Assembly (NCBI RefSeq): GCF_029643425.1
Contig: NZ_CP119106.1
Span: 3,286,001 to 3,350,000, forward strand
DNA length: 64,000 nucleotides
Direction of reading: 5' to 3'
Source of the DNA: Isoptericola sp. AK164
Lineage (GTDB): Bacteria; Actinomycetota; Actinomycetes; Actinomycetales; Cellulomonadaceae
The position numbers and the translations under genes were made by a program. Position 1 is the first letter of the stretch; every line of letters starts with the position of its first letter. Below the pieces are notes generated by a model, which saw only the letters and a program-made list of their open reading frames with translations, had not been told where the DNA came from and did not search any database. Shown piece after piece: positions 1,637-63,842 of this stretch.

Positions 1637-1670
1637 GGCGACGCCGTCGCGGCCACGTGGCGACGCGGAC

Positions 1671-1699: not shown

Positions 1700-1712
1700 G
1701 GCGACGACACCG

Positions 1713-8636: not shown

Positions 8637-8671
8637 TCCACGCGCCGGCGTCGTCCCGTCCCCGGCACGGG

Positions 8672-8730
8672 TCGAGCGTCTCTGTTCCTCCGGAACCAGC
8701 AGCTGATTCCTGAGAAACAGAGACGCTCGA
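8672..8730. repeat. Long intergenic palindrome, copy 1 (TCGAGCGTCTCTGTT family)
   Basis: Arms 8672-8695 and 8707-8730 match at 22 of 24 positions; the 11-base loop contains CAGCTG. The arm TCGAGCGTCTCTGTT is the same as in copies at 11071 and 21460. It fills the gap between two convergent genes; no T-run follows on either strand. It may serve as a two-way terminator or be a repeat element of the REP type. Confidence 0.8.
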
Positions 8731-8746
8731 TGCGCCCGGGAGAGGG

Positions 8747-10210
8747 TCAGCCGTGGAAGCGGACCTGCCCCTGCGGGTTCAGCTCACGGTAGGTGTTCGG
8801 CTTCTGCTTGCCGACACCGGCCGCGTCGTCGATCTCCAGGACGTCGAACCCCTGCTGGATGTCGTTCGAGAAGACGTACCCGTTGTAGTAGTACGCCGAC
8901 CACGAGCCACCCAGGACCATCCGCTCCGAGGACAGCGGGCCCCGGTCGAACCAGGCGATCTCCGTCGGGTTCGACGAGTCGGTGAAGTCGAACACCGAGA
9001 TCCCGCCCTGGTACCAGGCCTGGACCATGATGTCCTTGTCCTTGACCGGGATCAGCGAGCCGTTGTGGGCCACGCAGTTCTCGGTGTTCGTGTTCGTCCG
9101 CGGGATCTTGTAGTAGCTGCGGAACTCCAGCTCGCCGTCGACGACGTCGTAGATCCCGTTGGCGCCCCGCTCTGAGCCGACGGTCTCGTTGCAGGTCGCG
9201 GCGCCGCCGCCACCGAGCTCGTCGGTGAAGACCACCTTCGTGCCGTCGTTGTTGAACGTCGCCGAGTGCCAGAAGGCGAAGTTCTCGGTGTCACGGACGG
9301 TGGAGATCACCTCGGGGTCGGCCCGGTCGGAGATGTCCATGAGGATGCCGTCGCCCATGCACGCACCGGCCGCGAGGTCCAGCTTCACGTAGGTGGTGAT
9401 GTCGTGGCAGCCGGAGGTGTTCGTGTAGCCACCCTCCGGGAAGAGCACCGGCGTGGAGACGACCGCGGCCTCGGCCGGAGCCTTCGTCGGGATCTCGACC
9501 ACGGAGATCTTGTCGTGCGGCGGCTGGCAGTCCGACAGCAGCGGGTGCGGCGAGTACGACGAGACGTAGACGTACAGCGTCTGGCCGTTCTTGCTCGGCG
9601 CCAGGGAGTTCGTGTGCGAGCCGCACTGCGTCTCGACGGCGGCGACGTACTCCGGCTCGGTCGGCTCGGAGATGTCGAAGACCTTCAGGCCCTCCCAGTA
9701 GTCGACGCCGACCGGGTAGATCGACTCGCTCTCGCAGGAGTCGTCGGTGCGCCAGGAGTCCGTGGACAGCACGAGGATGTCGCCGTAGACGGAGACGTCG
9801 TTCTGCGACCCCGGGCAGACGACCTGCGCGGCCTGCGTCGGGCTCTCCGGGTCGGAGATGTCGTAGACGGTGAACCCGTTGTAGTTCCCCGCGAACGCGT
9901 AGTCGCCGGCGAAGGCGAGGTCGGAGCTGTAGGAGTTCTCGGCGGCGAACGCCCCGTTCTTCGGGATGTTCGCCAGCAGCTCCATGTTCAGCGCGTCCGT
10001 GGTGCCCGGCTCCGTGAGCCCCTCCGGTGTCGCGGAGTCGTCCAGGGCGACGATGCTCTGGGCGGGCAGCTCGCTGCCGTCGTCGGGCGCGTCGCCACCG
10101 GGTTCGGCGAATCCCGGGGCGGCGACGGCGAACGAACCGACGGCGAGGGCGCTGGTGAGCGCTCCGGCCGCCAGGGCTCGACGCCGCTGTCTCGTGGTCA
10201 GATGACGCAC
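8747..10210 (-). CDS. Secreted LVIVD-repeat beta-propeller protein
   Basis: 487 residues from the preferred GTG, which follows AAGGAGG by ten bases; the frame is open 13 codons further upstream. A Sec signal peptide ends near GSFAVAAPGFA. The mature part carries repeated units of the form NGFTVYDISDPESPTQAAQV, VFDISEPTEPEYVAAVET and SVFDFTDSSNPTEIAWFDRG, the LVIVD repeat, which builds a propeller. Conserved histidines (SHTNSLAP, CHDITTY, FWHSATF, CVAHNG) could bind a metal or ligand. No enzymatic role is known. It is divergent from a DUF305 protein gene and the shared 66-bp gap has two palindromes, which suggests joint control. Confidence 0.85.
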   Translation of the reverse strand: MRHLTTRQRRRALAAGALTSALAVGSFAVAAPGFAEPGGDAPDDGSELPAQSIVALDDSATPEGLTEPGTTDALNMELLANIPKNGAFAAENSYSSDLAFAGDYAFAGNYNGFTVYDISDPESPTQAAQVVCPGSQNDVSVYGDILVLSTDSWRTDDSCESESIYPVGVDYWEGLKVFDISEPTEPEYVAAVETQCGSHTNSLAPSKNGQTLYVYVSSYSPHPLLSDCQPPHDKISVVEIPTKAPAEAAVVSTPVLFPEGGYTNTSGCHDITTYVKLDLAAGACMGDGILMDISDRADPEVISTVRDTENFAFWHSATFNNDGTKVVFTDELGGGGAATCNETVGSERGANGIYDVVDGELEFRSYYKIPRTNTNTENCVAHNGSLIPVKDKDIMVQAWYQGGISVFDFTDSSNPTEIAWFDRGPLSSERMVLGGSWSAYYYNGYVFSNDIQQGFDVLEIDDAAGVGKQKPNTYRELNPQGQVRFHG

Positions 10211-10228
10211 AGGCGTCACACCTCCTTG

Positions 10229-10243
10229 GTAGGGTCCCCCTAC
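10229..10243. promoter_or_regulatory. Palindrome GTAGGG-TCC-CCCTAC in divergent promoter
   Basis: Perfect 6-bp inverted repeat with a 3-base centre, immediately upstream of the AAGGAGG of the LVIVD gene, where a repressor would block transcription start. The TAGGG/CCCTA pattern resembles G/C-tract operators bound by CsoR-type copper sensors, but this match is loose. Confidence 0.5.
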
Positions 10244-10254
10244 TTTCACCCGGT

Positions 10255-10268
10255 GTGACGCCCGTCAC
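10255..10268. promoter_or_regulatory. Palindrome GTGAC-GCCC-GTCAC near DUF305 gene start
   Basis: Perfect 5-bp inverted repeat with a 4-base centre, 12 bases downstream of the first palindrome and just before the DUF305 gene. A second regulator site or structured leader is possible; no protein can be assigned. Confidence 0.35.
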
Positions 10269-10276
10269 CAGGGTAT

Positions 10277-11041
10277 GTGCAGAGATTTAACCGGATGGTG
10301 ACAGTGGACGTACAGGGAGCACCCAGGGCTCGACGGCGCCGGCTCCGGCGCGCGACGGGGACGGCCGTCGTGCTGGTCGCCGCCGCGACGGCGGCCGCCT
10401 GCACCGGCGGCGGGTCACCGGCCACGACCGAGGCGGCCGCGACGCCGGAGAGCGTCGTGGTCCAGCCCGGCCGGCCCGGCGAGGAGAACGCCACCGTCGC
10501 ACCAGAGGACGTCGCACCTCCGCGGGCCGACGACGAGTGGAACCGGGCCGACGCCACCTTCATCAGCGACATGATCGTGCACCACGCCCAGGCGCTGGAA
10601 ATGTCCGAGCTGGCGCCGGACCGGGCCGAGGACCCCGGCGTCCTGGCGCTCGCCGCGCGGATCTACGACGTCCAGGGCGCCGAGATCCACGGCATGGCGG
10701 GCTGGCTGCAGGGGCACGACCTGCCCGTGCCCGTCGAGCTCGAGGACGGCGACGGCAGCGGCCCGCGGGCGCCGGTCGACGACGCCCACGACCACGACCC
10801 CGAGGACATGCCGGGCATGCTCAGCGACGCCCAGATGGCCGAGCTCGAGGCGGCGTCCGGCACCACCTTCGACCGGCTCTACCTGGAGGGCATGATCCAG
10901 CACCACCAGGGTGCGGTGACCATGTCCACCGAGCTGGCCGTCGACGGGATCAACTTCCGCACCCAGGAGCTGGCCAACGACATCGGCGCGGGCCAGCTCG
11001 CGGAGATCGGGCGCATGCAGGACATGCTCGACGACCTCTGA
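10277..11041 (+). CDS. DUF305-domain lipoprotein
   Basis: 254 residues. A short Arg-rich start leads to a signal peptide with lipobox (TAAAC), then a low-complexity linker, then two DUF305 halves, each with the ferritin-like four-helix signature: FISDMIVHHAQALEMSELA (about residue 95) and YLEGMIQHHQGAVTMSTELA (about residue 205). The linker between them has HDHDPEDMPGM, rich in His and Met, suggesting metal contact. DUF305 proteins are often found with copper-handling genes, but no function is proven. The start is uncertain: GTG at 10277 or ATG at 10295. Divergent from the LVIVD protein gene. Confidence 0.87.
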   Translation: MQRFNRMVTVDVQGAPRARRRRLRRATGTAVVLVAAATAAACTGGGSPATTEAAATPESVVVQPGRPGEENATVAPEDVAPPRADDEWNRADATFISDMIVHHAQALEMSELAPDRAEDPGVLALAARIYDVQGAEIHGMAGWLQGHDLPVPVELEDGDGSGPRAPVDDAHDHDPEDMPGMLSDAQMAELEAASGTTFDRLYLEGMIQHHQGAVTMSTELAVDGINFRTQELANDIGAGQLAEIGRMQDMLDDL

Positions 11042-11070
11042 TCGGGCGATGGCCTGACCCCCACCGCGCC

Positions 11071-11133
11071 GGTCGAGCGTCTCTGTTCCTCAGGACTCAG
11101 CGGCTGAATCCTGAGGAACAGAGACGCTCGACC
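11071..11133. repeat. Long intergenic palindrome, copy 2
   Basis: Perfect 25-bp arms (11071-11095 and 11109-11133; arm GGTCGAGCGTCTCTGTTCCT then CAGGA). The 13-base loop contains CAGC and GCTG, which extend the hairpin. It lies between the convergent DUF305 and CPBP genes. Arms are identical to copy 3 over TCGAGCGTCTCTGTTCCTC and beyond, while the outermost bases differ in paired fashion. Confidence 0.85.
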
Positions 11134-11170
11134 GCACCCGCCGGAGAGGTCCGGCGCGCCGGGAGCCCGG

Positions 11171-11980
11171 TCAGGGTGCCGTGACGAAGATGTCGAGCAG
11201 CTCCGGGTGGTGGCCGTGCACGAGCACGGCGAACACGACGGCGTCGAACAGCAGGTGCACCGTGACGACGTACGGCAGCGACTTGTACCGGGCGAAGATC
11301 CAGCCCTGGACGAGCGCGAACGGGATCGTCAGCAACGGACCCCACTCGCGGTAGCCGAGCTCCCACAGGAACGACACGAAGACCATGGCCTGCAGGACGT
11401 TGGCCGCCTGCAGCGGGAAGTGCCGCCGCAGCAGGGCGAACACGGTGCAGATGAAGAACAGCTCGTCCCAGATCCCCACCGCGTTGACACCCACGAACAG
11501 CCGGGCGATGTCGCTGTCGCCCTCGAGCGGCGGCCAGTTGAGGTAGGCGCCCGAACCGAGGAAGTACCAGGGCAGCACGAGGTAGCCGACCACGACCACC
11601 ACGACGAGGTACAGCCACTGGCCGCGGGTCCACCGGCGCCCCGTGAATGCCGGGAACCGCACCGCCCCCGCGCCGTCGTCGTCCCGGAACCAGTACTTCG
11701 ACAGCGCCCAGGGCACGAGCACGGCCAGCGAGAGCGCCACCGTGAACCGCGCCATCCCGGCGTTCGACAGGTCGGCCTTCAGCGAGATCGACGAGACGAT
11801 CGCCATGCCGAGCGCGATGAGGCCGAGATCGCGGCCGAGCACGCGGTCGACCAGGAGTCCGAGCACGACGCCGGCGACGAGCGGCACGTAGCCGAGCGGA
11901 CGCACGTGCACGGCGAAGAGCAGGATCGCCGCCCCGCACACGAGTACGGCTGCGCTGTAGCGCGCGAGGGTGACGGCCAT
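11171..11980 (-). CDS. CPBP-family intramembrane metalloprotease-like protein
   Basis: 269 residues, about eight hydrophobic segments. The CPBP (Abi) motifs are present in modified form: IWDELFFICTVFALLRR (motif 1, with D-E in place of the usual E-E pair, then the conserved R), WELGYREWGP, FALVQGWIFARYKSLPYVVTVHLLFD (H of the later motif). The family cleaves membrane substrates in yeast CAAX processing and contributes to bacteriocin immunity in some bacteria; here the role is unknown. The ATG is set by TAGGGT six bases upstream. Confidence 0.8.
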   Translation of the reverse strand: MAVTLARYSAAVLVCGAAILLFAVHVRPLGYVPLVAGVVLGLLVDRVLGRDLGLIALGMAIVSSISLKADLSNAGMARFTVALSLAVLVPWALSKYWFRDDDGAGAVRFPAFTGRRWTRGQWLYLVVVVVVGYLVLPWYFLGSGAYLNWPPLEGDSDIARLFVGVNAVGIWDELFFICTVFALLRRHFPLQAANVLQAMVFVSFLWELGYREWGPLLTIPFALVQGWIFARYKSLPYVVTVHLLFDAVVFAVLVHGHHPELLDIFVTAP

Positions 11981-11986
11981 GCCCGC

Positions 11987-11992
11987 ACCCTA
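11987..11992 (-). promoter_or_regulatory. -10 box TAGGGT of the CPBP gene
   Basis: Minus-strand TAGGGT, six bases, ATG; no ribosome site between. Leaderless arrangement. Confidence 0.45.
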
Positions 11993-12006
11993 GCGGCGCG
12001 GCGCCG

Positions 12007-12660
12007 TCAGCGACCGGGGTGGGCCGCGCCGAGCTCGACGAACACGGCCCGGTTGAGGCGGAACGCCTCGCGGGCCTCGGACACGGCGAGGTCGACCTCG
12101 TCGGCGCTCAGGTCCAGCGCGTCGAGGCGTTCGCGGTAGAGGTCCTTGAACGGCTTGAGCCTGGAGATCTCGGGGAAGTCGTAGAACTCCAGCCCGGCCG
12201 TCCCCATGTCGTAGTGACGCTGCATCATGCGCTGCACGATCTGTCCGCCGGACAGGTCGCCGAGGTAGCGCGTGTACGCGTGGGCGGCGTACTGCGGCAG
12301 GCGCGTGCCGACGTCGTGCAGCCGCGCGACGTACGTCCGGGTGGCCGGCAGCGTGCGGACGCGCTCGCGCCAGTCCGGCCCGTACAGGTGGGCCAGGTCG
12401 CGCTCGATCGCCGGGACCCGGGTCAGCTCGTCGAAGACCAGCGCCTCCCCGCGCGCGTCGTGACGCACGGCTTCGCTCGCCTGCTCCAGCGCCGTGTAGA
12501 CGGCGTGCTGCTGAGCGGCCAGGTCGGCGTAGGCGGCGACGTCGAGGCCGCCGCTCATCAGACGCGCGACGAACCCCTCGTTCTCGGCCTGCTCGTGCTC
12601 CCGGCGCGTGCCGTCACGCAGCAGGACGGAGAGGGTGCCCTTGGGGGCGACGACGGGCAT
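12007..12660 (-). CDS. hmuO: Biliverdin-producing heme oxygenase
   Basis: 217 residues, close to the length of Corynebacterium HmuO. The proximal heme ligand is the His of TRREHEQAE near residue 22, and the distal helix motif YLGDLSGGQIVQRM is present near residue 132. It opens heme to biliverdin, CO and iron. The ATG at 12660 has GGAGG four bases upstream; the frame is open seven codons further. A DtxR/IdeR-like box lies 60 bases upstream, so iron control is plausible. Besides iron recovery, its product biliverdin is the chromophore needed by the bacteriophytochrome encoded at 35260. Confidence 0.93.
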   Translation of the reverse strand: MPVVAPKGTLSVLLRDGTRREHEQAENEGFVARLMSGGLDVAAYADLAAQQHAVYTALEQASEAVRHDARGEALVFDELTRVPAIERDLAHLYGPDWRERVRTLPATRTYVARLHDVGTRLPQYAAHAYTRYLGDLSGGQIVQRMMQRHYDMGTAGLEFYDFPEISRLKPFKDLYRERLDALDLSADEVDLAVSEAREAFRLNRAVFVELGAAHPGR

Positions 12661-12720
12661 GGGACCTCCACGGATGTTCATGACGAGGCGTCAGGACGTC
12701 TCCCACGATAGCAGCGGGGC

Positions 12721-12739
12721 TGAGGCATGCCTCACCTCA
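12721..12739. promoter_or_regulatory. Possible DtxR/IdeR iron box
   Basis: TGAGGCATGCCTCACCTCA fits the 19-base iron-box pattern TTAGGTTAGSCTAACCTAA at 13 positions, keeping the AGG and ACCT cores, and its first 14 bases are a perfect palindrome. It precedes the heme oxygenase gene and overlaps the last codons of the sigma factor gene. Confidence 0.45.
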
Positions 12740-13909
12740 TCCCCGGAGCCGAGCCGCGCACCGCAGGAGGTGGTGCCGTTCCGCCAGCGTCGCCGCCTCG
12801 TCGGCGGCCCGCGCGTACAGCTCCCACGCCTCCCCGACGTCGCCGGCGCGCTCGTGCAGGTACGCCGCGGCGGCGGTCCGCCGGGGCACCCGGTCGGGCA
12901 CGGCCTCCAGCGCCCGCAGTCCCGCGAGCGCCCCGTCGACGTGCCCGACGGCGACCGCCCGGTTGAGCCGCACGACCGGGGAGTCGGCGAGCGCCACGAG
13001 CTCGTCGTACCACTCCAGGATCTGCACCCAGTCGGTGTCCTCTGCCCGCGGGGCGTCGTCGTGCAGGGCCGCGATCGCCGCCTGGACCTGGTACTCCCCC
13101 AGCCGGTCGTCGGCGAGCGCGGCGTGCAGGACCTGCACGCCCTCGGCGATCGCCACGGTGTCCCACCGCGACCGGTCCTGCTCGGCGAGCGGCACCAGCT
13201 CACCGCGCCGCGTCCACCGGGCAGCGCGACGGGCGTCGGTCAGGAGCATGAGGGCGAGCAGCCCGGCGACCTCCGTGTCGGCCGTGGCGACGGCGAGCTG
13301 CCGGGTCAGGCGGATCGCCTCCCGCGCCAGGTCCACCTCGCCCGTGTGCCCCTCGGTGAACATCACGTACAGCACGCGGAGCACGTTCTGTACATCCCCC
13401 GGACGGTCGAAGGACCGGCCGGACAGCGTGCGCTTCGCCCGGCTGATGCGCTGGGCCATCGTCGCCTCCGGCACCATGTACGCCCGGGCGACCTGCGCCG
13501 TCGTCAGCCCGCCCACGGCGCGCAGCGTCAGCGCCACGGCCGACGCCGGGCTGAGCGCCTCGTGGCAGCAGCGGCTCAGCAGCAGCAACGTGTCGTCGGA
13601 CTGCTCGGTGGGACCCGGGTCCGGGGTGGCGTGGACCTGATCTTCCCGGCGACGGCGCGCCGTCTCGGAGCGCTGCACGTCCAGGAACCGGCGCCAGGCC
13701 ACGGTGACCAGCCATCCCTGCGGCTCGTCGGGGATCCCGTCCGGCCAGCGTCGGGAGGCCTCGAGCAGCGCCTCCTGCACGCAGTCCTCGGCCGTGGCGA
13801 AGTCGGCCCCGCGGCGCACGAGCACGCCGAGCACCCGCGGACCGAGCTCGGCCAGGAGCTCGGTCACGCGGGCGTCCGGGGCCGTGGCGCCTCCGGGCGG
13901 CACCGTCAT
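12737..13909 (-). CDS. ECF42-type RNA polymerase sigma factor with C-terminal TPR-like domain
   Basis: 390 residues. Region 2 at about 15-80 (GADFATAEDCVQEALLEASRRWP), region 4 at about 115-170 (SPASAVALTLRAVGGLTTAQVARAY, then ATMAQRISRAKRTL), then a helical C-terminal domain of about 200 residues typical of ECF42 (SigJ/DUF6596-like), with signature segments VLYVMFTEGH and LNRAVAVGHVDGALAGL. ECF42 factors lack an anti-sigma factor and are linked to DGPF-domain proteins; the gene directly upstream is such a protein and overlaps by four bases (ATGA). The C-terminal extension is thought to replace anti-sigma control. Confidence 0.92.
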   Translation of the reverse strand: MTVPPGGATAPDARVTELLAELGPRVLGVLVRRGADFATAEDCVQEALLEASRRWPDGIPDEPQGWLVTVAWRRFLDVQRSETARRRREDQVHATPDPGPTEQSDDTLLLLSRCCHEALSPASAVALTLRAVGGLTTAQVARAYMVPEATMAQRISRAKRTLSGRSFDRPGDVQNVLRVLYVMFTEGHTGEVDLAREAIRLTRQLAVATADTEVAGLLALMLLTDARRAARWTRRGELVPLAEQDRSRWDTVAIAEGVQVLHAALADDRLGEYQVQAAIAALHDDAPRAEDTDWVQILEWYDELVALADSPVVRLNRAVAVGHVDGALAGLRALEAVPDRVPRRTAAAAYLHERAGDVGEAWELYARAADEAATLAERHHLLRCAARLRG

Positions 13910-14319
13910 CCGTCCGTGGGAGGAGCGTCCGCCATGAAGGGCCGGACCTCGATCCACTCCTCGAGGGGCTTGCCGCCCTGCCCCGGTGCCGAGGACAGGA
14001 ACGCCGCCGCCTCGTGGGCCCGCTCGGTCGACTCGACGTCGATGATCATCCAGCCGGCGACGACGTCCTTCGTCTCGGCGAACGGACCGTCGGTCACCGG
14101 CGGGCGCCCCTCGCCGTCGTACCGCACGAACGTGCCCTCCGGGGACAGCGCCTGGGCGTCGACGAACTCGCCGCGCTCGGTGAGCACGTCGGCGACGTGC
14201 TGCATGAACGCGATGTGGTCCGAGACCTCCTCGGGCGTCCAGCGGTCCATCGGCTCGCGGGCGTTCGGACGCTGCTCCGGGCCGCCGCGGTAGTGCTTGA
14301 GCAACAGGTACTTCGCCAT
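13906..14319 (-). CDS. DGPF/YCII-related protein
   Basis: 137 residues. Starts MAKYLLLKHYRGGPEQRP after AAGGAGA nine bases upstream. The name-giving motif appears as PPVTDGPFAETKDVVAGWMIIDV around residues 68-90. YCII-fold proteins are small alpha/beta barrels; DGPF members are encoded beside ECF42 sigma factors and are probably under their control, with no known reaction. Stop codon overlaps the sigma factor start. Confidence 0.9.
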   Translation of the reverse strand: MAKYLLLKHYRGGPEQRPNAREPMDRWTPEEVSDHIAFMQHVADVLTERGEFVDAQALSPEGTFVRYDGEGRPPVTDGPFAETKDVVAGWMIIDVESTERAHEAAAFLSSAPGQGGKPLEEWIEVRPFMADAPPTDG

Positions 14320-14474
14320 GGTCGTTCTCTCCTTCGTCTCGAGGACGTCGTCGATCGGGCCTTCTCCGATCGTGCCGACACCCCGGGGACGGAGCCACCC
14401 GGCGGTTCTCGACATCCGGCCGGTGCGTGTCCCCGGGGCGACCTAGGCTCGCCGGTGACGACGAGGAGGTCGAC
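14320..14474. promoter_or_regulatory. Divergent promoter gap between DGPF and DinB genes
   Basis: Holds a 7-bp inverted repeat CGATCGG-GCCTTCT-CCGATCG at 14352-14372 and a -10-like TAGGCT at 14444-14449 for the DinB gene, followed by the ribosome site AGGAGG at 14465-14470. The region serving the sigma operon was not resolved. Confidence 0.35.
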
Positions 14475-15046
14475 GTGGACGAGGACGAGGTCAGGGCCAC
14501 CCTGCACCGCTACCTGCGCGACGCCCGCGAGGCGCTGCTGTGGAAGACGGAGGGGCTGTCCGAGCGAGCGCTGCGCACGCCCCGGACCGGCACGGGCACG
14601 AACCTGCTCGGTCTGGTCAAGCACGCCGCGAGCGTGGAGATCGGGTACTTCGGCGAGACGTTCGGACGCGACTGGCCGACGCCGGAGGAGACCCCCTGGA
14701 TCGCGCGGCTAACGCCGACTTCTACGCCGAGGCCGACGAGACCGCCGACGGCCTGCGCGACCTGTACCGCCGGGTCGCCGAGTTCGCGGACGAGACCATC
14801 GAGTCGCTGCCGCTCCGGGCACCCGGCCGCGTGCCGTGGTGGGGCGACCGCGGGGACGTCACGCTCCACCGGGTGATCGTCCACGTGCTCGCCGACCTGG
14901 AGCGTCACGCCGGCCACGCGGACATCCTGCGAGAGGAGATCGACGGCGAGGTCGGGCTCCAGCCGAGCGCCACCAACATCTGGCCGACGGACTGGGACGC
15001 CTACGTCGACCGGCTGCGGGGCATCGCGGACCGGTTCCCCGACTGA
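14475..15046 (+). pseudogene. DinB-superfamily protein gene with a frameshift
   Basis: The GTG at 14475 follows AGGAGG by four bases and the frame encodes VDEDEVRATLHRYLRDAREA through HAASVEIGYFGETFGRDW and EETPWIAR, a standard DinB start with its first helix histidine. At about 14705-14712 the coding potential moves to the next frame (-1), which continues ANADFYAEADETADGLRDLY, WWGDRGDVTLHRVIVHVLAD and NIWPTDWDAYVDRL to the stop at 15046. Joined, the halves give a full-length DinB protein of about 190 residues. Adding one base near CGCGCGGCTAACG would restore one frame. It is either a real loss-of-function deletion or an assembly error; both halves keep good codon bias, so any lesion is recent. 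Confidence 0.8.
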
Positions 15047-15065
15047 CGCACGGGACAATGGGGCC

Positions 15066-16304
15066 GTGCAGTGCCCCCACTACGACGCCGGCCGGTGCCG
15101 CTCGTGCACCCTCATCGAGATCGCGCGCCCCGAGCAGGTCCGCGACAAGGAGTCGCACGTGCGCGAGCTGCTCGCGGCGTACGACGACGTCTCCTGGCTG
15201 CCGGCCGTCGTCGGACCCGAGAGCGGCTTCCGCAACAAGGCGAAGATGGTGGTCGCGGGCACCGTCGAGGAGCCGGTGCTCGGCATCGTCGGGCCGCCCG
15301 GACCCTACGCGGGCCAGAGCGTCGACCTGACCGACTGCGGCCTGTACCCGCCCGCGCTGCAGGCCGCCTTCGGCCCGCTCGCCGAGCTGATCACCCGAGC
15401 CCGCCTGCAGCCGTACGACCTGGCGCCACCGGCCGACGGTGCACGCCGCAAGGTCACCCCGCGCGCCGCCGCCCGGCGCGGGGAGCTCAAGCACGTGCTG
15501 GTCACCCTCTCCCCCGACGGCGAGCTGATGGTCCGCCTCGTGCTGCGCTCCACCGAGGCCCTGGACCGGATCCGCAAGCACCTGCCCTGGCTGCACGAGC
15601 GCCTGCCCGGGCTGGCCGTGCTGAGCGTGAACGTCCAGCCCGCCCACGCCGCCGTGCTGGAGGGCGAGCAGGAGATCGTGCTCACCGAGCGCGCCACCCT
15701 GCCCATGCGGCTGGACGGGGTCACGCTGCACCTGCGTCCGCAGAGCTTCTTCCAGACCAACACCGGGGTCGCGGAGGCCCTGTACCGCCAGGCACGACGG
15801 TGGATCGACGAGATCGACCCGGCCACGCTGTGGGACCTCTACTGCGGCGTCGGCGGGTTCGCGCTGCACGTCGCCGCCCCGGGCCGGTCGGTCACCGGCA
15901 TCGAGATCTCCGCCGAGGCGGTCGCCTCGGCGACCACGACGGCGTCCGAGCTGGCCACGCTGCCCGCCGGCGCCGTCGTCGGCTCCCGGGACGCGGACTG
16001 GTGGCGCCGCGCCATGGCGGGTGTCCGGTTCGCCGCCGGGGACGCGACCGGCTTCGCGCTCGGCAGCGGGGACGACCCCGAGCTGGTCGTGGTCAACCCG
16101 CCCCGGCGGGGCATCGGAACGGACCTGGCTCGCCGGCTCGAGGCGTCCGCGGTGCAGCACGTGCTCTACTCGAGCTGCCAGGCCCGGACCCTGGCACGCG
16201 ATCTGGCCGAGATGCCCTCGCTCCGCCCCCGACGAGCGGTGCTGCTGGACATGTTCCCGCAGACGAGCCACTACGAGGTGCTGGTGCTGCTGTCCCGCGG
16301 ATGA
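15066..16304 (+). CDS. rlmC: 23S rRNA (uracil-5-)-methyltransferase, RlmC-like
   Basis: 412 residues. Four cysteines at the N-terminus (MQCPHYDAGRCRSCTLIE) form the usual Fe-S site. Then PQSFFQTN and the SAM-binding motif LWDLYCGVGGFALHV (about 258-272), followed by VVNPPRRGIG and the nucleophile/base region HVLYSSCQARTLARDL near residue 360. This set identifies the TrmA/RlmC/RlmD family; the short length without a TRAM domain favours RlmC, which methylates U747 of E. coli 23S rRNA. The GTG start is preceded by GACAAT six bases upstream. Confidence 0.9.
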   Translation: MQCPHYDAGRCRSCTLIEIARPEQVRDKESHVRELLAAYDDVSWLPAVVGPESGFRNKAKMVVAGTVEEPVLGIVGPPGPYAGQSVDLTDCGLYPPALQAAFGPLAELITRARLQPYDLAPPADGARRKVTPRAAARRGELKHVLVTLSPDGELMVRLVLRSTEALDRIRKHLPWLHERLPGLAVLSVNVQPAHAAVLEGEQEIVLTERATLPMRLDGVTLHLRPQSFFQTNTGVAEALYRQARRWIDEIDPATLWDLYCGVGGFALHVAAPGRSVTGIEISAEAVASATTTASELATLPAGAVVGSRDADWWRRAMAGVRFAAGDATGFALGSGDDPELVVVNPPRRGIGTDLARRLEASAVQHVLYSSCQARTLARDLAEMPSLRPRRAVLLDMFPQTSHYEVLVLLSRG

Positions 16305-16313
16305 CGGGCGGGC

Positions 16314-17642
16314 TCAGCGCTCGTCGACGGCGTCGAGCCACGCCTCCGGCGTCGTTCCCTCCGGCGCGCTGACCTGCACGGTCACGCTGCCCGGCGACCC
16401 GCCCGGGGTCCACACGCGCCACACGCCGTCCTCGGTCTGCTCGATACGGACGTTGCCGCGCGCGGCCTCGACGGCCACGACCTCGACCCCGGGGCTCGGC
16501 ACGACCCGGAACTCCCCTCGCTCCTCGAGGTCGAGCCCGACCGTGGTCGTGACCGGCTCGGGTGGCGGCTCGGGCTCCGGGTCCGGGGGCTCGGGGGTCG
16601 GGTCCGGCGTCGGCTCCGGTTCCGGGGACGGCGTGGGCTCCGGGCCGGGCGGGGGCTCCGGCGAGGGGTCCGCCGGCGGCTCCGGGACGACGGCGGGCTC
16701 CGGGTCCGGGGGCTCGGGGGTCGGCTCCGGCGTCGGTTCCGGCGTCGGCTCCGGTTCCGGGGACGGTTCGGGTTCCGGGGACGGTTCGGGTTCCGGGGAC
16801 GCTTCGGGTTCCGGGGACGGCTCCGGGGACGGACCCGTGGTCTCCCGCGGCGTCGGGGCCGGCGAAGGGCGCTCCATCGCCACCGGAGCGGTGGGCGGCG
16901 CCTCGTCCGGCACGTCGCCCCCGACGAGGGCGCCGGCCGCGACCGCGACCGCGGCGACCCCGACGCCGGCCGCCAGGGCCACCGGGCGCCCGACCAGCCG
17001 GCGCGCGCCCTGCACGAACCACTCCCCGGCCGCGACGAGGGCGGCGCCGAACGGCCCCAGCCAGGCGAGCGCGCCGTGGGACGCCGCCGCACCGGACGCG
17101 CCGACGACGACCGGTACCGACATCCCCGAGACGGCGGCCCCGCTGAGCAGCACCGGCGCCATGTCCCGCAGCGCCCAGGAGGACTCCCGGACGTCGATGA
17201 AGGCGCGCAGGCACCCGGTGCAGCCGAACAGGTGGTCCTCGAGCAGCTGCCGCCGGCCGCCACCGAGCCGGTGCTGGACGTAGGCGTGCAGGTCGCGCCG
17301 GGTCTCGACGCACGCCCGCCGCGGTCCGCCGCGGGCGTGGGCGGCGGACAGGGCCCGGCCGAGCTGGTCCTCGGCCTGCCGCAGCCGACGCGCCGCCGAC
17401 CTCACGTGCACGCCGAGCTCGCGCGCCACGACCTCGATCCGCCGGCCCAGGACGTGCAGGTCCCAGAGCAGCTGCTGGTCGTCGTGGGACAGCGTGGCCA
17501 GGGCGGTCCGCACGATGTCCGGGTCGACCGTCCCTTCGGCACCCGGCCCGTCGTCGTGGCCCCGGGCAGCGGCCGCGGCACGCATCTGCCGCGCGACGTC
17601 GTCGGCGCCCGACGACCCGGAGGCGTCCTGCCTCGCCCTCAC
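16314..17642 (-). CDS. Sigma-region-4-like / zinc-finger / transmembrane regulator with Pro-Glu-rich extracellular stalk
   Basis: 442 residues from GTG 17642 (GAGAGG six bases upstream). Residues 40-97 look like sigma-70 region 4 (TALATLSHDDQQLLWDLHVL, then VARELGVHVRSAARRLRQAE). Residues 117-150 carry an anti-sigma-type zinc finger (HLFGCTGC: H137, C141, C144). Hydrophobic stretches follow at about 160-205 and 218-241. Residues 255-365 are a P-E-P-S/T stalk, and the last about 75 residues form a small beta-rich domain outside the cell. Sigma region 2 is absent, so it cannot be a complete sigma factor. A one-component membrane regulator is possible. Convergent with rlmC; divergent from a FUSC gene. 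Confidence 0.65.
   Translation of the reverse strand: MRARQDASGSSGADDVARQMRAAAAARGHDDGPGAEGTVDPDIVRTALATLSHDDQQLLWDLHVLGRRIEVVARELGVHVRSAARRLRQAEDQLGRALSAAHARGGPRRACVETRRDLHAYVQHRLGGGRRQLLEDHLFGCTGCLRAFIDVRESSWALRDMAPVLLSGAAVSGMSVPVVVGASGAAASHGALAWLGPFGAALVAAGEWFVQGARRLVGRPVALAAGVGVAAVAVAAGALVGGDVPDEAPPTAPVAMERPSPAPTPRETTGPSPEPSPEPEASPEPEPSPEPEPSPEPEPTPEPTPEPTPEPPDPEPAVVPEPPADPSPEPPPGPEPTPSPEPEPTPDPTPEPPDPEPEPPPEPVTTTVGLDLEERGEFRVVPSPGVEVVAVEAARGNVRIEQTEDGVWRVWTPGGSPGSVTVQVSAPEGTTPEAWLDAVDER
16753..16824. repeat. Four 18-bp tandem repeats in the Pro-Glu stalk
   Basis: Units of the form GGTTCCGGGGACGGTTCG repeat in tandem with few changes and encode PEPSPE-type stalk units on the minus strand. 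Related but less regular repeats extend from about 16570 to 16830. Such repeats can change copy number and so stalk length. Confidence 0.7.
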
Positions 17643-17768
17643 GCGTTCCCTCTCCCCTGCCGGTCCACCGGCCTGCCACGGCGGGCTCCGCCCGCGCCGG
17701 GGACATGATCGCAGCGGTGTACCCGGTGCTGGCAAGTCCCTGCACAGGAAACGCGCCGCAGGTTCCGC

Positions 17769-18872
17769 TTGACTGAGGACGTGCGCACCACCGAACAGCT
17801 CCGTCCCTGGTCGCGTCTCCGCGACTGGTTCGCGTCCCCGGCGAACCAGACCGACGTGCTGCAGCTGGTCAAGTCCGTCGTCGCCGCCATGGTCGCCTGG
17901 GCGGTGGCCGGGTTCGCCCTCGGGCTCGAGCAGTCGTTCCTGGCACCCTGGGTCGCCCTGCTGACGATGCACGAGACGGTGCACCGCACGCTGTGGCGTG
18001 GCGCGCAGACGGTCCTCGCCGTCGCGACGGGGATCCTGGTCTCCCTGGTCGTCGTGCAGTTCTTCGAGGCCACCGTGTGGTCGTTCGGGCTGGCGCTGCT
18101 GGTCGGGCTGCTCCTGGGACGACTGCCCGGGCTGCGCACCGAGGGGCTCACCGTCGCGACCACCGTCCTGTTCGTCGTCACCACCGGCTACGACCTGTCG
18201 GAGCAGCGCGCGATCGAGCTGCTCCCCGACCGCCTGCTGGACACCGCCGTCGGCGTGGGGGTGGCGCTGCTGGTCAACCTGGTCGCCTTCCCGCCGCTGA
18301 ACGACCGCAGCGCGCAGCGGCAGATCGACGACGTCGACGAACGACTCGGCGAGCTGCTGGGCGACATGGCCACGGAGATGCGTCAGCCCTGGGACTCCCA
18401 GTCCGAGGACGACTGGATCGAACGCACCCGGTCGATCCAGCGGGACCTCGACCAGGCCTGGTCGCTCGTCCGGACGGCCCGCGAGGCCGGCCGGTGGAAC
18501 CCACGCCGACGGCGGCACCCCGGCGCCGCGCTGGCCACCTACCCCGAGGTGCTCCTGCGGCTCGAGGAGGGCGTCGCGCAGACCCAGGCCGTCGCCCGGC
18601 ACGTCCGCGACGCGAGTCGGGAGGCCTCGGACTGGGACCCGCGCTTCAAGGACCGGTACCTCGACCTGCTCGAGGAGGTCGGCCGCCGCGTCGCCGATCC
18701 GGACCAGGACGTCGCACCCCTGCGCCAGGACGTGGGTCGGCTCGCCGAGGACCTGTCCGACGAGGACCTGTCCGGCCGGTACTGGCCGTTGTACGGGGCA
18801 CTCATCGCGAACCTGCGGGCCATCATCGACATCGTCGACGACGTCGCCACCGCCCGGCCCGTGCGGACCTGA
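17769..18872 (+). CDS. FUSC/aromatic-acid-exporter-like membrane protein
   Basis: 367 residues. Hydrophobic segments at about 33-55, 60-80, 85-105, 110-130 and 150-175 with FLAPWVALLTMHETVHRTLWRGAQTVLAVATG, the typical FUSC N-terminal half, then a cytoplasmic region of about 180 mostly helical residues with many charged positions. This one-repeat form is common in actinobacteria and is annotated as FUSC or ArAE family; transport of aromatic acids is known for some relatives only. Start is uncertain: TTG 17769 or GTG 17781, neither with a good ribosome site. Confidence 0.8.
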   Translation: MTEDVRTTEQLRPWSRLRDWFASPANQTDVLQLVKSVVAAMVAWAVAGFALGLEQSFLAPWVALLTMHETVHRTLWRGAQTVLAVATGILVSLVVVQFFEATVWSFGLALLVGLLLGRLPGLRTEGLTVATTVLFVVTTGYDLSEQRAIELLPDRLLDTAVGVGVALLVNLVAFPPLNDRSAQRQIDDVDERLGELLGDMATEMRQPWDSQSEDDWIERTRSIQRDLDQAWSLVRTAREAGRWNPRRRRHPGAALATYPEVLLRLEEGVAQTQAVARHVRDASREASDWDPRFKDRYLDLLEEVGRRVADPDQDVAPLRQDVGRLAEDLSDEDLSGRYWPLYGALIANLRAIIDIVDDVATARPVRT

Positions 18873-18904
18873 GCCCACCGGGCCGGGCGGAGGCCTCGGC
18901 GCGA

Positions 18905-19972
18905 TCAGCCCTGCGGCTGGAGCAGCGGCGCCGCGACGAGCGAGAACAGGTCCTTCGGGTCGGTCGGCTCGGCGATGAGGTCGACCTGCGCCAGCAGCTC
19001 GCGTCCGGCCGGGTCGGACCGCAGGGCGGCGTGCACGAACCGCAGCGTCGTCCAGTCCTCGACGGCGAACCCGACGGAGTCGAACACGGTCACCTGATCC
19101 GGGTCCGTCCGGCCCGAGGCCTGGCCGGTGAGGATCTCCCACAGCTCGGTGACGGGGTGGTCGTCCGCGAGCTGCTGGATCTCCCCCTCGATCCGGGTCT
19201 GCGGGGTGTACTCGACGACGACGGCGGTCCCGGGTGCGGTGAGGATGCCCGCCTCGAGCTCGGTCTTGCCCGGGCAGTCCCCGCCGATGGCGTTGACGTG
19301 CACGCCGGGCGCCGCGGTCGCGAGCATGTCCGCCGTCAGCACGGTGGCGTTGCGCTTGTCGGCGGTGCACGTGGTCACGACGTCGGCCCCGGCCACGGCG
19401 TCGGCCGCGCTGGTGGCCTCGTGCACGTCGAAGCCGAGCGCCCGCGCGTTGCGGACGAACTTCTCCCGCGCCGCCGGGTCCACGTCCCAGGCCCGCACGT
19501 GGGTGGCGCCGAGCAGGGCCCGCATGCCCAGCGCCTGGAACTCGGCCTGCGTGCCGGTGCCGATCAGCGCGTGGGTGCGGGCGCCGGGCCGGGCGAGCGT
19601 GCGGGCGGCGAGCGCCGACGTCGCCGCCGTGCGCAGCGCCGTGAGCAGCGTCATCTCGGCGAGGAACGTCGGGTAGCCGTTCTGGACGTCGGCGAGGACG
19701 CCGAAGGCCGTCACGGTCTGGAAGCCGCGCGCCGGGTTCAGCGGGTGGCCGTTGACGTACTTGAAGCCGTAGGTGACGTCGTCGGACGTCGGCATGAGCT
19801 CGATGACGCCGTCGCGGGAGTGCGAGGCGATGCGCGGTCGCTTGTCGAGCTCCGGCCAGCGCCGGAAGTCCGTGGCGAGGGCGTCGGCGAGCTCGGTGAT
19901 GATCCGTTCGGGGCCGCGCTCGGCGACCCAGCGGGCGGTGGCGGCGACGTCCAGCAGGTCGACGGTGGTCAT
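18905..19972 (-). CDS. ocd: Ornithine cyclodeaminase family protein
   Basis: 355 residues. The NAD-binding GTGTQAEFQ motif is at about 136-144 and the catalytic-region FDSVGFAVEDWTTLRF near residue 305 carries the family aspartate. The substrate region KYVNGHPLNPARG matches ornithine cyclodeaminases, which turn L-ornithine into L-proline and ammonia. Its start overlaps the ddaH stop (ATGA), so both are co-translated. Together they may move arginine-derived amino acids toward proline. Lysine cyclodeaminase or a related imine reductase activity cannot be excluded. Confidence 0.88.
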   Translation of the reverse strand: MTTVDLLDVAATARWVAERGPERIITELADALATDFRRWPELDKRPRIASHSRDGVIELMPTSDDVTYGFKYVNGHPLNPARGFQTVTAFGVLADVQNGYPTFLAEMTLLTALRTAATSALAARTLARPGARTHALIGTGTQAEFQALGMRALLGATHVRAWDVDPAAREKFVRNARALGFDVHEATSAADAVAGADVVTTCTADKRNATVLTADMLATAAPGVHVNAIGGDCPGKTELEAGILTAPGTAVVVEYTPQTRIEGEIQQLADDHPVTELWEILTGQASGRTDPDQVTVFDSVGFAVEDWTTLRFVHAALRSDPAGRELLAQVDLIAEPTDPKDLFSLVAAPLLQPQG

Positions 19973-20874
19973 GAGCGCACCTCCTGCGCAGGTCGGAGCT
20001 CGAGGGTGCAGCACTTGACCGAGCCGCCGCCCTTGAGCAGCTCGGACAGGTCGATGCCGACGGGGGTGTACCCCCGCTCGCGCAGCGCGGCGTGCATCCC
20101 GGTGGCGCGGTCGGACAGGAACACGTGCTTGCCGTCGCTGACGGCGTTGAGGCCGAGCACGTCCGCGTCGGCCTCGGTCGCGAGGATCGCGTCCGGGTAG
20201 CGCTCGCTCAGGACCGCCTGGGACTCCGGGGTGAACGCCCCGGGGAAGTAGGCGACCTCCGGGCGGGTGCCGTCGTCGGACGCCGTCGTCAGCACGGCCA
20301 GCGCGGTGTCGAGGTGGTAGAAGCGCGGGTCGACGAGCTCGAGGGTGAGGACGTCGACACCGAGGCGCTCGGCGACCTCGGCGTGGGCCTCGCGGGAGGT
20401 GCGGAACCCGGTGCCGGCGAGCATGACCTCGCCGTCCCAGAGCAGGTCGCCCTCCCCCTCGTTCAGCTCCGCCGCCTGTCCGAGGGCGACGAGGCCGTGC
20501 CGCGTGCCAGCGTCGCGCATCCAGGCGTCGTAGGCGATGCCCTCGGGCTGCCGCTCGGGGTGGGTGAACCGGGCGGCGAGCGCCTGGCCGTCGACGACGA
20601 CACCTCCGTTGGCGGCGTAGACCATGTCGGGCAGGCCGGGCTCGGGCTCGACGACGTCGACGGTGTGGCCGTGCGCCTCGTAGGCGGCCTTGAGCGCCTG
20701 CCACTGCACGACGGCGTGGCCGGCGTCGACAGGGACCGTGAGGTCCATCCACGGGTTGATCGCGTAGACCACGTCGAAGTGGACGGGCGGGCACATGAGG
20801 TAGTGGCGTGCGGTCGGCGTGCGGTCGGTGCCGGTCGTCGCGGTCTGCGCGACGGGCGGTGTGAGCAACGTCAT
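19969..20874 (-). CDS. ddaH: Dimethylargininase / amidinohydrolase family
   Basis: 301 residues in the pentein (guanidine-modifying) fold: MCPPVHFDVVYAINPWMD at the start, PDMVYAANGGVVVDGQA, catalytic His in RFYHLDTALAVL (about 172) and catalytic Cys in KGGGSVKCCTLEL near the C-terminus. Members hydrolyse methylated arginines to citrulline, or arginine itself. The ATG is preceded by TAGCCT six bases upstream. Divergent from an Lrp-type regulator, which probably controls it. Confidence 0.87.
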   Translation of the reverse strand: MTLLTPPVAQTATTGTDRTPTARHYLMCPPVHFDVVYAINPWMDLTVPVDAGHAVVQWQALKAAYEAHGHTVDVVEPEPGLPDMVYAANGGVVVDGQALAARFTHPERQPEGIAYDAWMRDAGTRHGLVALGQAAELNEGEGDLLWDGEVMLAGTGFRTSREAHAEVAERLGVDVLTLELVDPRFYHLDTALAVLTTASDDGTRPEVAYFPGAFTPESQAVLSERYPDAILATEADADVLGLNAVSDGKHVFLSDRATGMHAALRERGYTPVGIDLSELLKGGGSVKCCTLELRPAQEVRS

Positions 20875-20880
20875 GCAGCG

Positions 20881-20886
20881 AGGCTA
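20881..20886 (-). promoter_or_regulatory. -10 box TAGCCT of the ddaH-ocd operon
   Basis: Minus-strand TAGCCT, then six bases, then the ddaH ATG, with no ribosome site. The 115-bp gap to the lrp gene also has several GCGCA/CGCAA/CGCATT half-site-like words around 20928-20970 that could bind the regulator. Confidence 0.45.
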
Positions 20887-20989
20887 GGGGGACAGACATG
20901 AACCCGAACGGCGTGTTTCCTGCGCATCCTGACGCAATGTCGCATTATTCCGTACCCTGGGCGCAACGAACCTGCGTCGAGGAGTGGGG

Positions 20990-21433
20990 ATGGACCAGAC
21001 CAACCGCGAGATCGTGGCGATCCTGCTGCGCGACGGCCGGGCGTCCTACGCGGAGATCGGGGACGCCGTCGGACTCTCGGCGACGGCCGTCAAGCGTCGC
21101 GTCGACCGGATGCAGGCCCGCGGGGAGATCGCCGGGTTCACCGTGCGGGTCGCCCCGGAGGAGCTGGGCTGGCGCATCGAGGCCTACGTGGAGATCTTCT
21201 GCCGGGGCAACATCTCGCCGGCCGCCCTGGAGCGGGACTTCGGGCCGATCCCGGAGGTCGTGCGCGTGGACACCGTCACCGGCGAGGCCGACGCGCTGGT
21301 GCAGATCATGGCGGGGTCGATGTCCGACGTCGAACGGATCGTCGAGTCGTTCCGGGTCAACGCCCGCGTGGACAAGACGCGCACCGCGATCGTCATGTCC
21401 CGGGTGATCGACCGGCCGGCGCGGCTGGACTGA
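20990..21433 (+). CDS. Lrp/AsnC-family transcriptional regulator
   Basis: 147 residues. Helix-turn-helix at about 3-50 (QTNREIVAILLRDGRASYAEIGDAVGLSATAVKRRVDRMQ), then the RAM/AsnC ligand-binding fold (VRVDTVTGEADALVQIMAGSMSDVERIVE). ATG at 20990 has GGAG six bases upstream; a GTG two codons earlier is less likely. Genes of this type beside ddaH-ocd usually sense an amino acid such as arginine or ornithine and control the divergent operon. Confidence 0.9.
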   Translation: MDQTNREIVAILLRDGRASYAEIGDAVGLSATAVKRRVDRMQARGEIAGFTVRVAPEELGWRIEAYVEIFCRGNISPAALERDFGPIPEVVRVDTVTGEADALVQIMAGSMSDVERIVESFRVNARVDKTRTAIVMSRVIDRPARLD

Positions 21434-21459
21434 GCCGCACCGGCCGGTCCCACGCCAGC

Positions 21460-21524
21460 ACGTCGAGCGTCTCTGTTCCTCAGGGATCACGGACTGATTC
21501 CTGAGGAACAGAGACGCTCGACGT
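21460..21524. repeat. Long intergenic palindrome, copy 3
   Basis: Perfect 25-bp arms at 21460-21484 and 21500-21524 (arm ACGTCGAGCGTCTCTGTTCC then TCAGG), 15-base loop GATCACGGACTGATT. It fills the gap between the convergent lrp and glycosidase genes. Same arm core as copies 1 and 2; the outer ACG/CGT pairs differ from copy 2's GG/CC but still pair. Confidence 0.85.
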
Positions 21525-63814: not shown

Positions 63815-63842
63815 GCACCCACGATCCCGTGGTCGGGTGCCG

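Follow-up and report, generated by a model that had tools for sequence, protein, structure and literature searches.

A dispersed palindrome family and its probable nuclease partner in Isoptericola

The window, a stretch of 64,000 nucleotides of Isoptericola sp. AK164 (NZ_CP119106.1, positions 3,286,001 to 3,350,000), carries three near-identical palindromes that probably represent a dispersed non-coding family belonging to one nuclease gene outside the window, in a partnership resembling that of REPINs with RAYTs but with an unrelated enzyme. The palindromes are associated with the nuclease gene, and palindrome and nuclease diverge together. Because the repeats match those that bracket the nuclease, and many relatives of the nuclease own different repeats, the palindromes look like companions of the nuclease and not like simple gene stop signals.

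Palindromes of the window and the family they belong to

All three palindromes, to which no strand is assigned, lie in gaps between convergent genes. Copy 1 (8672..8730; 59 bp) is flanked by a gene for a YdcZ-type exporter (7623-8636, + strand) and one for an LVIVD-repeat protein (8747-10210, - strand); copy 2 (11071..11133, with a 59-bp core at 11073-11131) by a DUF305 gene (10370-11041, +) and a gene for an Rce1-like protein (11171-11980, -); and copy 3 (21460..21524, core at 21463-21521, again 59 bp) by a gene for an AsnC-type regulator (20990-21433, +) and one for a large laminin-G/Big_4 protein (21537-25379, -). The first-pass annotation had placed the elements at these positions, and they are real: their best palindrome scores are 20, 29 and 27, against 11-12 in five shuffled windows. 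The stems are also as it described them, with 25 unbroken pairs in copies 2 and 3 and 22 pairs among the first 24 positions of copy 1, and the gene calls agree that the element is found in three of the five convergent gaps over 100 bp (of 10 in total). Its outer pairs GG/CC and ACG/CGT exist in copies 2 and 3, but beyond the 59-bp core most of the genome's 13 copies pair raggedly. That the hairpin, and not just the sequence, is kept holds in part: among these 13 copies, 4 of 26 pairs have changed on both sides with pairing retained, but the overall covariation term from RNAalifold is near zero (-0.11). No Rfam family reached its gathering threshold in the window.

The annotation had proposed a genome-wide search, and the 13 copies found in the own genome (genus Isoptericola in the GTDB sense) are indeed more than three. 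At least one copy is present in 13 of the 18 genomes of the genus, with 0 matches for the reversed control pattern. The five highest counts are those of G000 (13), G009 (13), G010 (19), G013 (23) and G017 (13); the other 13 genomes have 8, 4, 4, 4, 3, 2, 2 and 1 copies, and five have 0. A covariance-model search (E<=0.001) gave no match in 18 genomes from other genera of the family or in 22 others of the order. The 11-nt ends, GAGCGTCTCTG and CAGAGACGCTC, are nearly invariant, and the spacing between them is 33 bp in 65 of the 65 copies in which both ends are exact. The inner stem differs from species to species with pairing mostly retained; within-genome shuffles paired as well in 0 of 2000 cases in G000, G013 and G017 and in 3 of 2000 in G009, the test being weak in G014 (56/2000) and not significant in G010 (695/2000). 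Arms lacking a partner are no commoner in the own genome (3 two-mismatch matches) than matches to the reversed control (5); thus, the arms come in pairs, and a reading as uptake signals was rejected.

The context of the copies was examined in 102 copies with at most 5 mismatches (14 of the 19 in G010, 3 of 4 in G006, 2 of 4 in G012, 7 of 8 in G014 and all of those in the other nine copy-bearing genomes, plus one more-mismatched copy each in G014 and G015). Of these, 39 are convergent, 40 tandem, 14 divergent and 9 overlap a gene call, so that 93 lie outside gene calls. The annotation's reservation, that tandem and divergent gaps might carry copies as often as chance predicts, is half borne out: such copies are many, but 42% of the 93 intergenic ones lie in convergent gaps, which contain 11% of intergenic bases. 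With one copy kept per neighbour group, the convergent share is 22 of 49 intergenic copies. Convergent gaps are therefore favoured but not exclusive; convergent placement holds for the three window copies but is no general rule, since the own genome has 7 convergent copies among its 13, along with 3 in tandem gaps, 2 in divergent ones and 1 that overlaps a gene call. Copies lying within 6 kb of one another differ less than the rest of the same genome (median of 6 vs 11 differences in 33; 18 pairs, p=9e-4). A role in chromosome organisation, also suggested by the annotation, finds loose clustering only, the copies of the own genome gathering about the nuclease gene as closely as about the origin.

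The annotation had further proposed a two-way terminator, and a dispersed element of this kind, under selection at gene ends and homogenised by gene conversion, agrees with the placement. The palindromes lie directly behind coding sequences, at a median of 16 bp from the gene 3' end (IQR 9-20 bp, n=118) versus 77 for 5' gaps; convergent gaps are enriched as described; the three stems of the window fold at -38 to -59 kcal/mol; and other hairpins occupy orthologous gaps in some species. However, the GC-rich hairpin lacks the U-tract of an intrinsic (Rho-independent) terminator: as the annotation had noted, a T-run is absent, with at least 5 T in 8 within 14 bases on just 1 of the 204 flanking sides of the 102 copies. 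Moreover, among the 40 tandem copies the transcribed strand has no G.U preference (G.U-type GT 23, AC 27), 14 copies are divergent, a terminator has no need for nearly invariant ends or a fixed 33-bp spacer, and the bracketing of one gene family is left unexplained. The terminator reading thus appears quite improbable, and is weaker than a partnership with the nuclease; a pure RNA function was rejected, the sense strand being without wobble bias.

The nuclease gene bracketed by the palindrome

Two copies of the palindrome bracket a gene in G000, G009, G010, G013 and G017; in the first it lies outside the window, at G000:C1:3041743-3042747, and codes for a protein (P0001) with an AbiEi_4 winged helix and a Vsr-like nuclease domain. 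The five genomes with the bracketed gene have 13-23 copies and the remaining 13 of the genus 0-8, a relation that rests on related species. Among 48 homologue genes examined, the window type of palindrome brackets only those in these five genomes; G014, which has 8 copies, is without a bracketed partner in this set. The ends are better preserved in bracketed-gene genomes, with a mean of 0.33 mismatches (n=76), and more decayed elsewhere, with 1.12 (n=24; p=6e-5), under the same limit of 3 mismatches in both groups.

The N-terminus of the protein resembles the AbiEi antitoxin of the AbiE type IV toxin-antitoxin systems, with an AbiEi_4 match in 53 of 66 family members (E<=0.01) and a Foldseek match to 6y8q (E 1.5e-4); unlike that antitoxin, it is joined to an extra C-terminal, nuclease-like domain. 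MTES_1575 matches 29 of 66 members (E<=0.01), although in P0001 the match to this Vsr-like Pfam model (23.6 bits) is below the curated cut-off of 38.2. In the predicted structure (pLDDT 94) this domain appears to have an alpha-beta-beta-beta-alpha-beta core (H210-221, E228-235, E240-249, E255-261, H269-282, E287-293), and E212, D245, E259, D261, H266 and D275 are invariant in 66 of 66 members. Such a core with invariant acidic residues is the motif of Vsr-like or PD-(D/E)XK nucleases; the topology and acidic residues are shared with Vsr-like nucleases, among them the homing endonuclease I-Bth0305I and the REase MTES_1575, and the Foldseek match to the homing endonuclease 3r3p (TMt 0.60) is not significant (E 1.4). 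A PDB sequence search gave 0 matches at E<=1, and nothing in NCBIfam came close to its cut-off. Homologues, many of them weak matches, occur in 181 of the 198 genomes sampled from the order.

A set of short, scattered inverted repeats whose ends hardly vary could also consist of MITEs derived from a conventional transposon or, as the annotation had ventured, of REPs that a RAYT mobilises. However, the RAYT-type domain Y1_Tnp (PF01797) has 0 matches in the 18 genomes of the genus, in a search that was positive in 5 of 14 controls; Pfam does not identify the bracketed gene as a transposase; the nuclease has no match at E<=1e-5 among 50,697 phage and 72,556 plasmid records, for which a phage or plasmid origin was likewise rejected; and no target-site duplication is evident by eye in the flanks of the copies. 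The RAYT reading is largely refuted, and we give this whole class of explanation very little weight. Nevertheless, the guess of a REP-like element comes closest in kind of the three that the annotation made: the enzyme was wrong, the likely partner being an AbiEi_4/Vsr-like nuclease. Taken as a whole, that interpretation is partly supported.

The window itself encodes a paralogue of the bracketed nuclease (594..1583, + strand; 329 aa, with a GTG start chosen in this analysis), also composed of a winged helix and a Vsr-like nuclease domain, which is 55% identical to P0001 (E 8e-95) and matches PADLOC AbiEi models (up to 7e-16). It is not the partner of palindrome copies 1-3. A degenerate palindrome with the core TCAGGCATCACCG is found upstream (431..459, no strand) and a weak matching one with the same core (score 10) downstream (1670..1700, no strand), in the convergent gap 1584-1712; the segment 421-458 aligns with the downstream flank with a score of 46. 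Further paralogues are found in the own genome at 396.9 kb and 822.9 kb. The palindrome of the 396.9-kb paralogue is not dispersed in the own genome, where the two-arm pattern found two flanking copies and one candidate (total matches 5, control 6); its pattern CGTCCCGGTCCTGCGGG was uninformative, the controls being nearly equal.

Homologues with palindromes of their own

Upstream and downstream flanks are alike (score >=45) at 46 of 82 homologue loci, compared with 1.9% of 2000 cross-pairs; the set consists of 80 loci with corrected starts and two own-genome genes, a first run having left out 12 of the 80, where no gene was called, before it was repeated on all 80. Within the genus, 24 of 46 homologues reach this similarity as opposed to 4 of 547 control genes (2 of 48 homologues were dropped for a short flank); the 46-gene and 82-locus sets overlap. 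No similarity of at least 36 is seen at 27 of the 82, and in 9 of the 55 loci that have it the shared stretch does not overlap a palindrome.

Palindrome similarity correlates with protein similarity (Mantel r=0.537, 0 of 5000 permutations) over the 43 of 82 loci with a palindrome score of at least 12, although the nearest protein is the one with the nearest palindrome at just 17 of the 43. A domain-wise Mantel test on 38 loci gave similar correlations for each of the three parts of the protein (r 0.45-0.47), and so does not single out a recognition domain. Orthologues in G015 and G004, with the same neighbour genes, have other palindromes, and that in G005, again with the same neighbours, has none, while one copy remains in that genome. 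Moreover, a second dispersed family, with the arm GTGCTGACTTGATCCTCAAA (12 forward and 12 reverse matches in G003, 7 and 8 in G004), brackets a nuclease in both genomes, its downstream copy overlapping the gene end.

Where present, the palindrome upstream of a homologue lies at a median of 116.5 bp from the gene, where an operator could sit, and the one downstream at a median of 19 bp from the stop codon. Palindromes could thus be binding sites (operators or marker sites) through which the winged-helix nuclease regulates itself or patrols the chromosome but which it does not mobilise, their spread being due to ordinary duplication and gene conversion. The AbiEi-type winged helix is in keeping with this, as is the greater likeness of copies within 6 kb of each other. 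An operator, however, leaves unexplained the second copy behind the stop codon, the convergent placement of 39 of the 102 copies and the compensated stem changes, and we regard this reading as unlikely.

A proposed nuclease-palindrome partnership

Under the partnership that we favour, the winged helix and/or the nuclease domain would recognise the palindrome, most likely as a DNA hairpin or cruciform, and the nuclease would cut at the palindrome or next to it, with new copies then pasted into intergenic DNA by repair or strand transfer. Copies would survive for the most part close behind stop codons, at sites where an insertion does the least damage and where a hairpin may be harmless or serve to end transcripts. 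Binding, cutting and copying of the palindrome by the nuclease are what we infer from the association. No movement of a palindrome is seen. A clean empty site was sought in orthologous gaps and not found because these are too diverged for a junction to be placed; at copy 2 they measure 6-84 bp without the element, and 101 and 129 bp in the two that have it. Since many copies occupy orthologous loci in several species, activity would be slow.

As with REPINs or REPs and their RAYTs (TnpA_REP; REPtrons), the palindromes are dispersed and mostly intergenic, and the repeat brackets an enzyme gene, with matching flanks at many homologues. Unlike RAYTs, the enzyme is a winged-helix, Vsr-like nuclease and not an HUH tyrosine transposase; unlike REPINs, the element is a single palindrome of fixed length with nearly invariant 11-nt ends and no GTAG tag, and there are at most 23 copies per genome, REPs being known at far higher copy numbers. 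In the sections of the REPIN/RAYT reports drawn on here, the enzymes are described as single-copy paralogues, each beside its own repeat class, with which it co-evolves, and the RAYT gene itself appears to be immobile (PMC3116915; PMC8266576); sequencing reads have been screened for REPIN excision junctions (PMC3116915). CGTC-tagged REPs, described in 2013, are short palindromic repeats that do not flank a transposase gene; their sequences are different, and the portions of that report used here list five phyla without Actinobacteria and mention no nuclease partner (PMC3733652).

In the literature searched, no earlier report of such a system was found. Winged-helix, Vsr-like nucleases, with many paralogues each propagating or maintaining its own hairpin, may constitute a second, independently evolved class of enzyme plus palindrome in bacteria, a proposal to which we give slightly less than even chances. 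If true, a mode of existence like that of REPINs evolved on more than one occasion, and a candidate enzyme class exists for palindromic repeats hitherto without a partner. As the family is common in the order and matches antitoxin models, its proteins would be annotated as antitoxins or receive no functional assignment; if these nucleases have palindromes of their own and mobilise them, a role is found for a large protein family, and terminator-like repeats become mobile or maintained elements. This would provide a second system, independent of HUH transposases, for studying the persistence of small palindromes in bacterial genomes; a single genus offers many pairs of paralogue and repeat, in which the loss of an enzyme, a change in its specificity and the decay of its repeat may be traced at the same locus.

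A dispersed palindrome with a conserved hairpin

The palindromes at 8672-8730, 11071-11133 and 21460-21524 (copies 1 to 3), noticed in the first-pass annotation, have near-perfect stems, with 25 unbroken pairs in copies 2 and 3 and 22 of the first 24 positions paired in copy 1, and score 20, 29 and 27 for copies 1 to 3, against best scores of 11-12 in five shuffled windows. They are not the only copies: the source genome (G000; a single contig of 3,576,703 bp, with the window at 3286001-3350000) has 13. With at most three mismatches allowed over 22 end positions, 13 of the 18 genomes of the genus (Isoptericola in the GTDB sense, which takes in Krasilnikoviella flava) are positive, with 23, 19, 13, 13, 13, 8, 4, 4, 4, 3, 2, 2 and 1 copies, and five have none; the genomes are related, so that these counts are not independent. 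A reversed control pattern had no match in any of the 18 under the same limit. Moreover, a covariance model built from the 13 G000 copies finds matches in 16 of the 18 genus genomes and in none of 18 genomes from other genera of the family or 22 others of the order. Its best matches are weaker in G002 (1.5e-9), G015 (8e-5) and G016 (4e-4), and in G002 and G016 they fall on palindromes whose sequence is different.

The ends of the palindrome, GAGCGTCTCTG and CAGAGACGCTC, are near-constant (both exact in 11 of the 13 G000 copies), and all 65 pairs of exact ends enclose a 33-bp spacer; another 17 exact left ends lack an exact partner on the right within 90 bp. The inner stem is largely species-specific (TTCCTCAGGA in G000, TTCGTCAGGA in G009, AAAGTCCGGG in G010, NNTGCAC in G017), with on average 11.2 differences in 33 within a genome (pairs more than 6 kb apart) versus 16.0 between genomes, and orthologous loci in different species share copies despite these differences. 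When right halves are redealt among the copies of one genome, none of 2000 shuffles reaches the observed inner pairing in G000, G017 or G013, the last with loose pairing (177 of 253 inner cells), and 3 of 2000 do so in G009. The excess is weak in G014 (56/2000), and pairing is not above shuffles in G010 (695/2000), where the stem hardly varies. Thus, pairing itself is kept, and the earlier proposal that the hairpin, and not just its sequence, is maintained is borne out in G000, G013, G017 and G009. Selection on RNA would make tandem copies tolerate G.U more than A.C on the transcribed strand; tandem copies have no such excess (23 vs 27), which points to DNA or a copying process behind the kept pairing, more than to RNA.

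Placement relative to genes

Three of the five convergent gaps longer than 100 bp in the window hold the element, as first reported; ten convergent gaps of any length are called, with gene starts taken from our own codon-usage caller. The gap at 1584-1712 is without it and lies behind a gene (594-1583, + strand) paralogous to the partner gene described below; that at 63722-63842 contains a 22-pair hairpin of unrelated sequence. Around the window paralogue, 485-534 and a downstream stretch (listed as 1708-1758; roughly 1659-1708 when converted from the reversed flank) form a second, weaker matching flank pair, inverted, with a score of 40, which suggests that two or more decayed palindromes are present. 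In some other species the gaps orthologous to window 8637-8746 and 11042-11170 (L274-L283) hold other hairpins, among them ~60-bp palindromes in G005 and G015 whose sequence is different. At gene ends, a hairpin of one family seems to give way to one of another.

Gene context was assigned to 102 copies, of which 39 are convergent, 40 tandem and 14 divergent, while nine overlap a gene call; eight of these nine are at loci common to at least two species, where the gene calls may be too long. The convergent setting described for the three window copies is thus enriched across the genus but not exclusive: it accounts for 42% of the 93 intergenic copies versus 11% of intergenic bases (binomial p=5e-14) and 19% of gaps (p=4e-7), orthologous copies not being independent, and for 22 of 49 when one copy is kept per neighbour group. 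The median gap is 16 bp to a neighbouring 3' end (n=118) and 77 bp to a 5' end (n=68). Either selection against insertion near promoters or a role as terminator would give this pattern. Copies in G000 beyond the pair flanking the partner gene cluster towards the origin (median 282 kb, uniform p 0.004; dnaA is at the contig start) and equally towards the partner gene (265 kb, p 0.003). The median distances to contig start and to nuclease gene are 294 kb (p 0.001) and 609 kb (p 0.06) in G010, and 1118 kb (p 0.79) and 471 kb (p 0.005) in G013; no dnaA was found among the start genes tested on these two contigs.

A bracketed nuclease-like gene and its homologues

A gene of ~330 aa is flanked on both sides by the palindrome in G000 (the partner gene, C1:3041743-3042747, encoding P0001), G009, G010, G013 and G017, and these are the five genomes with most copies. 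Such complete separation from the other 13 has a chance of 1 in 8568 by ranking, its true weight being less because the species are related. Palindrome ends are less decayed in these genomes than in the rest (mean mismatches 0.33 versus 1.12, p=6e-5, with the limit of 3; 0.33 versus 1.38 without it, in an unevenly sampled set). Among 48 homologue genes examined, the present palindrome brackets only those five; in G006 the same neighbour genes enclose one palindrome and no gene. Two near-identical copies also enclose a tyrosine-phosphatase-family gene (Pfam) in G017 (L127:4058-4789), a short gene, acetyltransferase-like by inspection, in G013 (L072:7999-8535) and 1.6 kb of G000 in which our caller found no gene (L033:5111-6739); these segments resemble repeat-bounded cassettes or remnants.

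The AlphaFold model of the bracketed I. chiayiensis protein (L193; mean pLDDT 94, 66-sequence alignment) has a helix-strand-strand-strand-helix-strand core, and E212, D245, E259, D261, H266 and D275 are invariant in 66 of 66 sequences. This combination suggests an active nuclease of the Vsr-like/PD-(D/E)XK kind. Foldseek aligned the model with the AbiEi antitoxin 6y8q (E 1.5e-4); the similarity to the homing endonuclease I-Bth0305I (3r3p; TMt 0.60, E 1.4) was not significant. P0001 scores above the curated cut-off for AbiEi_4 and below that for the MTES_1575 nuclease, which PMC3710099 described as having a Vsr REase fold.

Homologues of the partner gene occur in 17 of the 18 genus genomes, many accompanied by a different palindrome at one flank or both, and the two flanks often match each other. 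Upstream and downstream flanks score at least 45 in 24 of 46 genus homologues versus 4 of 547 control genes; among those four, L127 and L072 carry the present palindrome on either side, and L188 is distantly homologous (E 1e-8). The same score is reached in 46 of 82 loci (80 named loci from several genera and two G000 genes) versus 1.9% of 2000 cross-pairs, a test that is not independent of the first, as the named loci contain many of the genus homologues. In 46 of the 55 loci scoring at least 36, a palindrome overlaps the stretch that the flanks have in common. Among other genes of the 80 loci, 1 of 155 has flanks scoring at least 45. Of 22 loci in the order's other families, 13 reach at least 45, without a separate control, and five have palindromes on both sides. 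Palindrome and protein co-diverge (Mantel r=0.537, reached by none of 5000 permutations, 43 loci), although in only 17 of the 43 loci does the nearest protein come with the nearest palindrome. The most telling evidence of generality comes from a single gene neighbourhood. The orthologue at this place bears the present palindrome in five species, GACGTAGCAGYTGGTCGGCC in G015 and, with one side found, CGAGCGTCGTACTTCGTCG in G004; in G005, whose genome keeps a single present-family copy, it has none.

A second family, with arm GTGCTGACTTGATCCTCAAA, is found in G003 (12 forward, 12 reverse) and G004 (7/8) at up to three mismatches, its control pattern giving no match. Each of these genomes has a nuclease gene bracketed by the family, and the downstream copy overlaps the end of that gene. 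It is more diverged in G005 (6/3) and G015 (5/3), with no such bracketed gene among those examined, and is present as single arms or one pair in five other genomes. Not every family is dispersed, since the palindrome of the G000 paralogue at 396.9 kb has its flanking pair and one candidate, and that of the G015 locus L151 its flanking pair and one single arm in G015 itself.

Palindrome-flanked homologues also occur in records named for distant genera, Propionicimonas (a MAG; L210) and Sphaerisporangium cinnabarinum (L231), by either contamination or transfer. Homologues at L242, L251, L252 and L314 have unusually similar flanks (130-226), with no palindrome found in those of L242 and L314. At G014:C1:71432-72392 (L191) the homologue is split into several frames with palindromes still adjoining, and is a decaying unit.

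Relation to known systems and possible mechanism

The suggestion of a REP-like element mobilised by a RAYT fits in the proposed way of working, which would be like that of REPIN/RAYT as outlined in PMC3116915 and PMC8266576, but not in the enzyme: Y1_Tnp (PF01797), the domain that defines that family, has no match in the 18 genus genomes. CGTC repeats without a dedicated transposase are described in PMC3733652. Open-access titles and abstract openings gave no link of AbiEi, DUF559 or MTES_1575 proteins with dispersed palindromic repeats; as far as these searches go, the association is absent from print.

Comparison of the genus genomes revealed no movement of a palindrome. The same data allow a DNA-binding protein that mobilises nothing and whose sites spread by gene conversion, and the greater likeness of neighbouring copies fits gene conversion. 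Bracketing, dispersal, kept pairing, co-divergence and the correlation with the gene are observed; that the palindrome is recognised, cut and copied is what we infer from them. In such a process the enzyme could open the hairpin on one strand, for example during lagging-strand synthesis, so that repair could copy it to another place. Recombination between the two flanking palindromes could remove the bracketed gene and leave one palindrome, as in G006.
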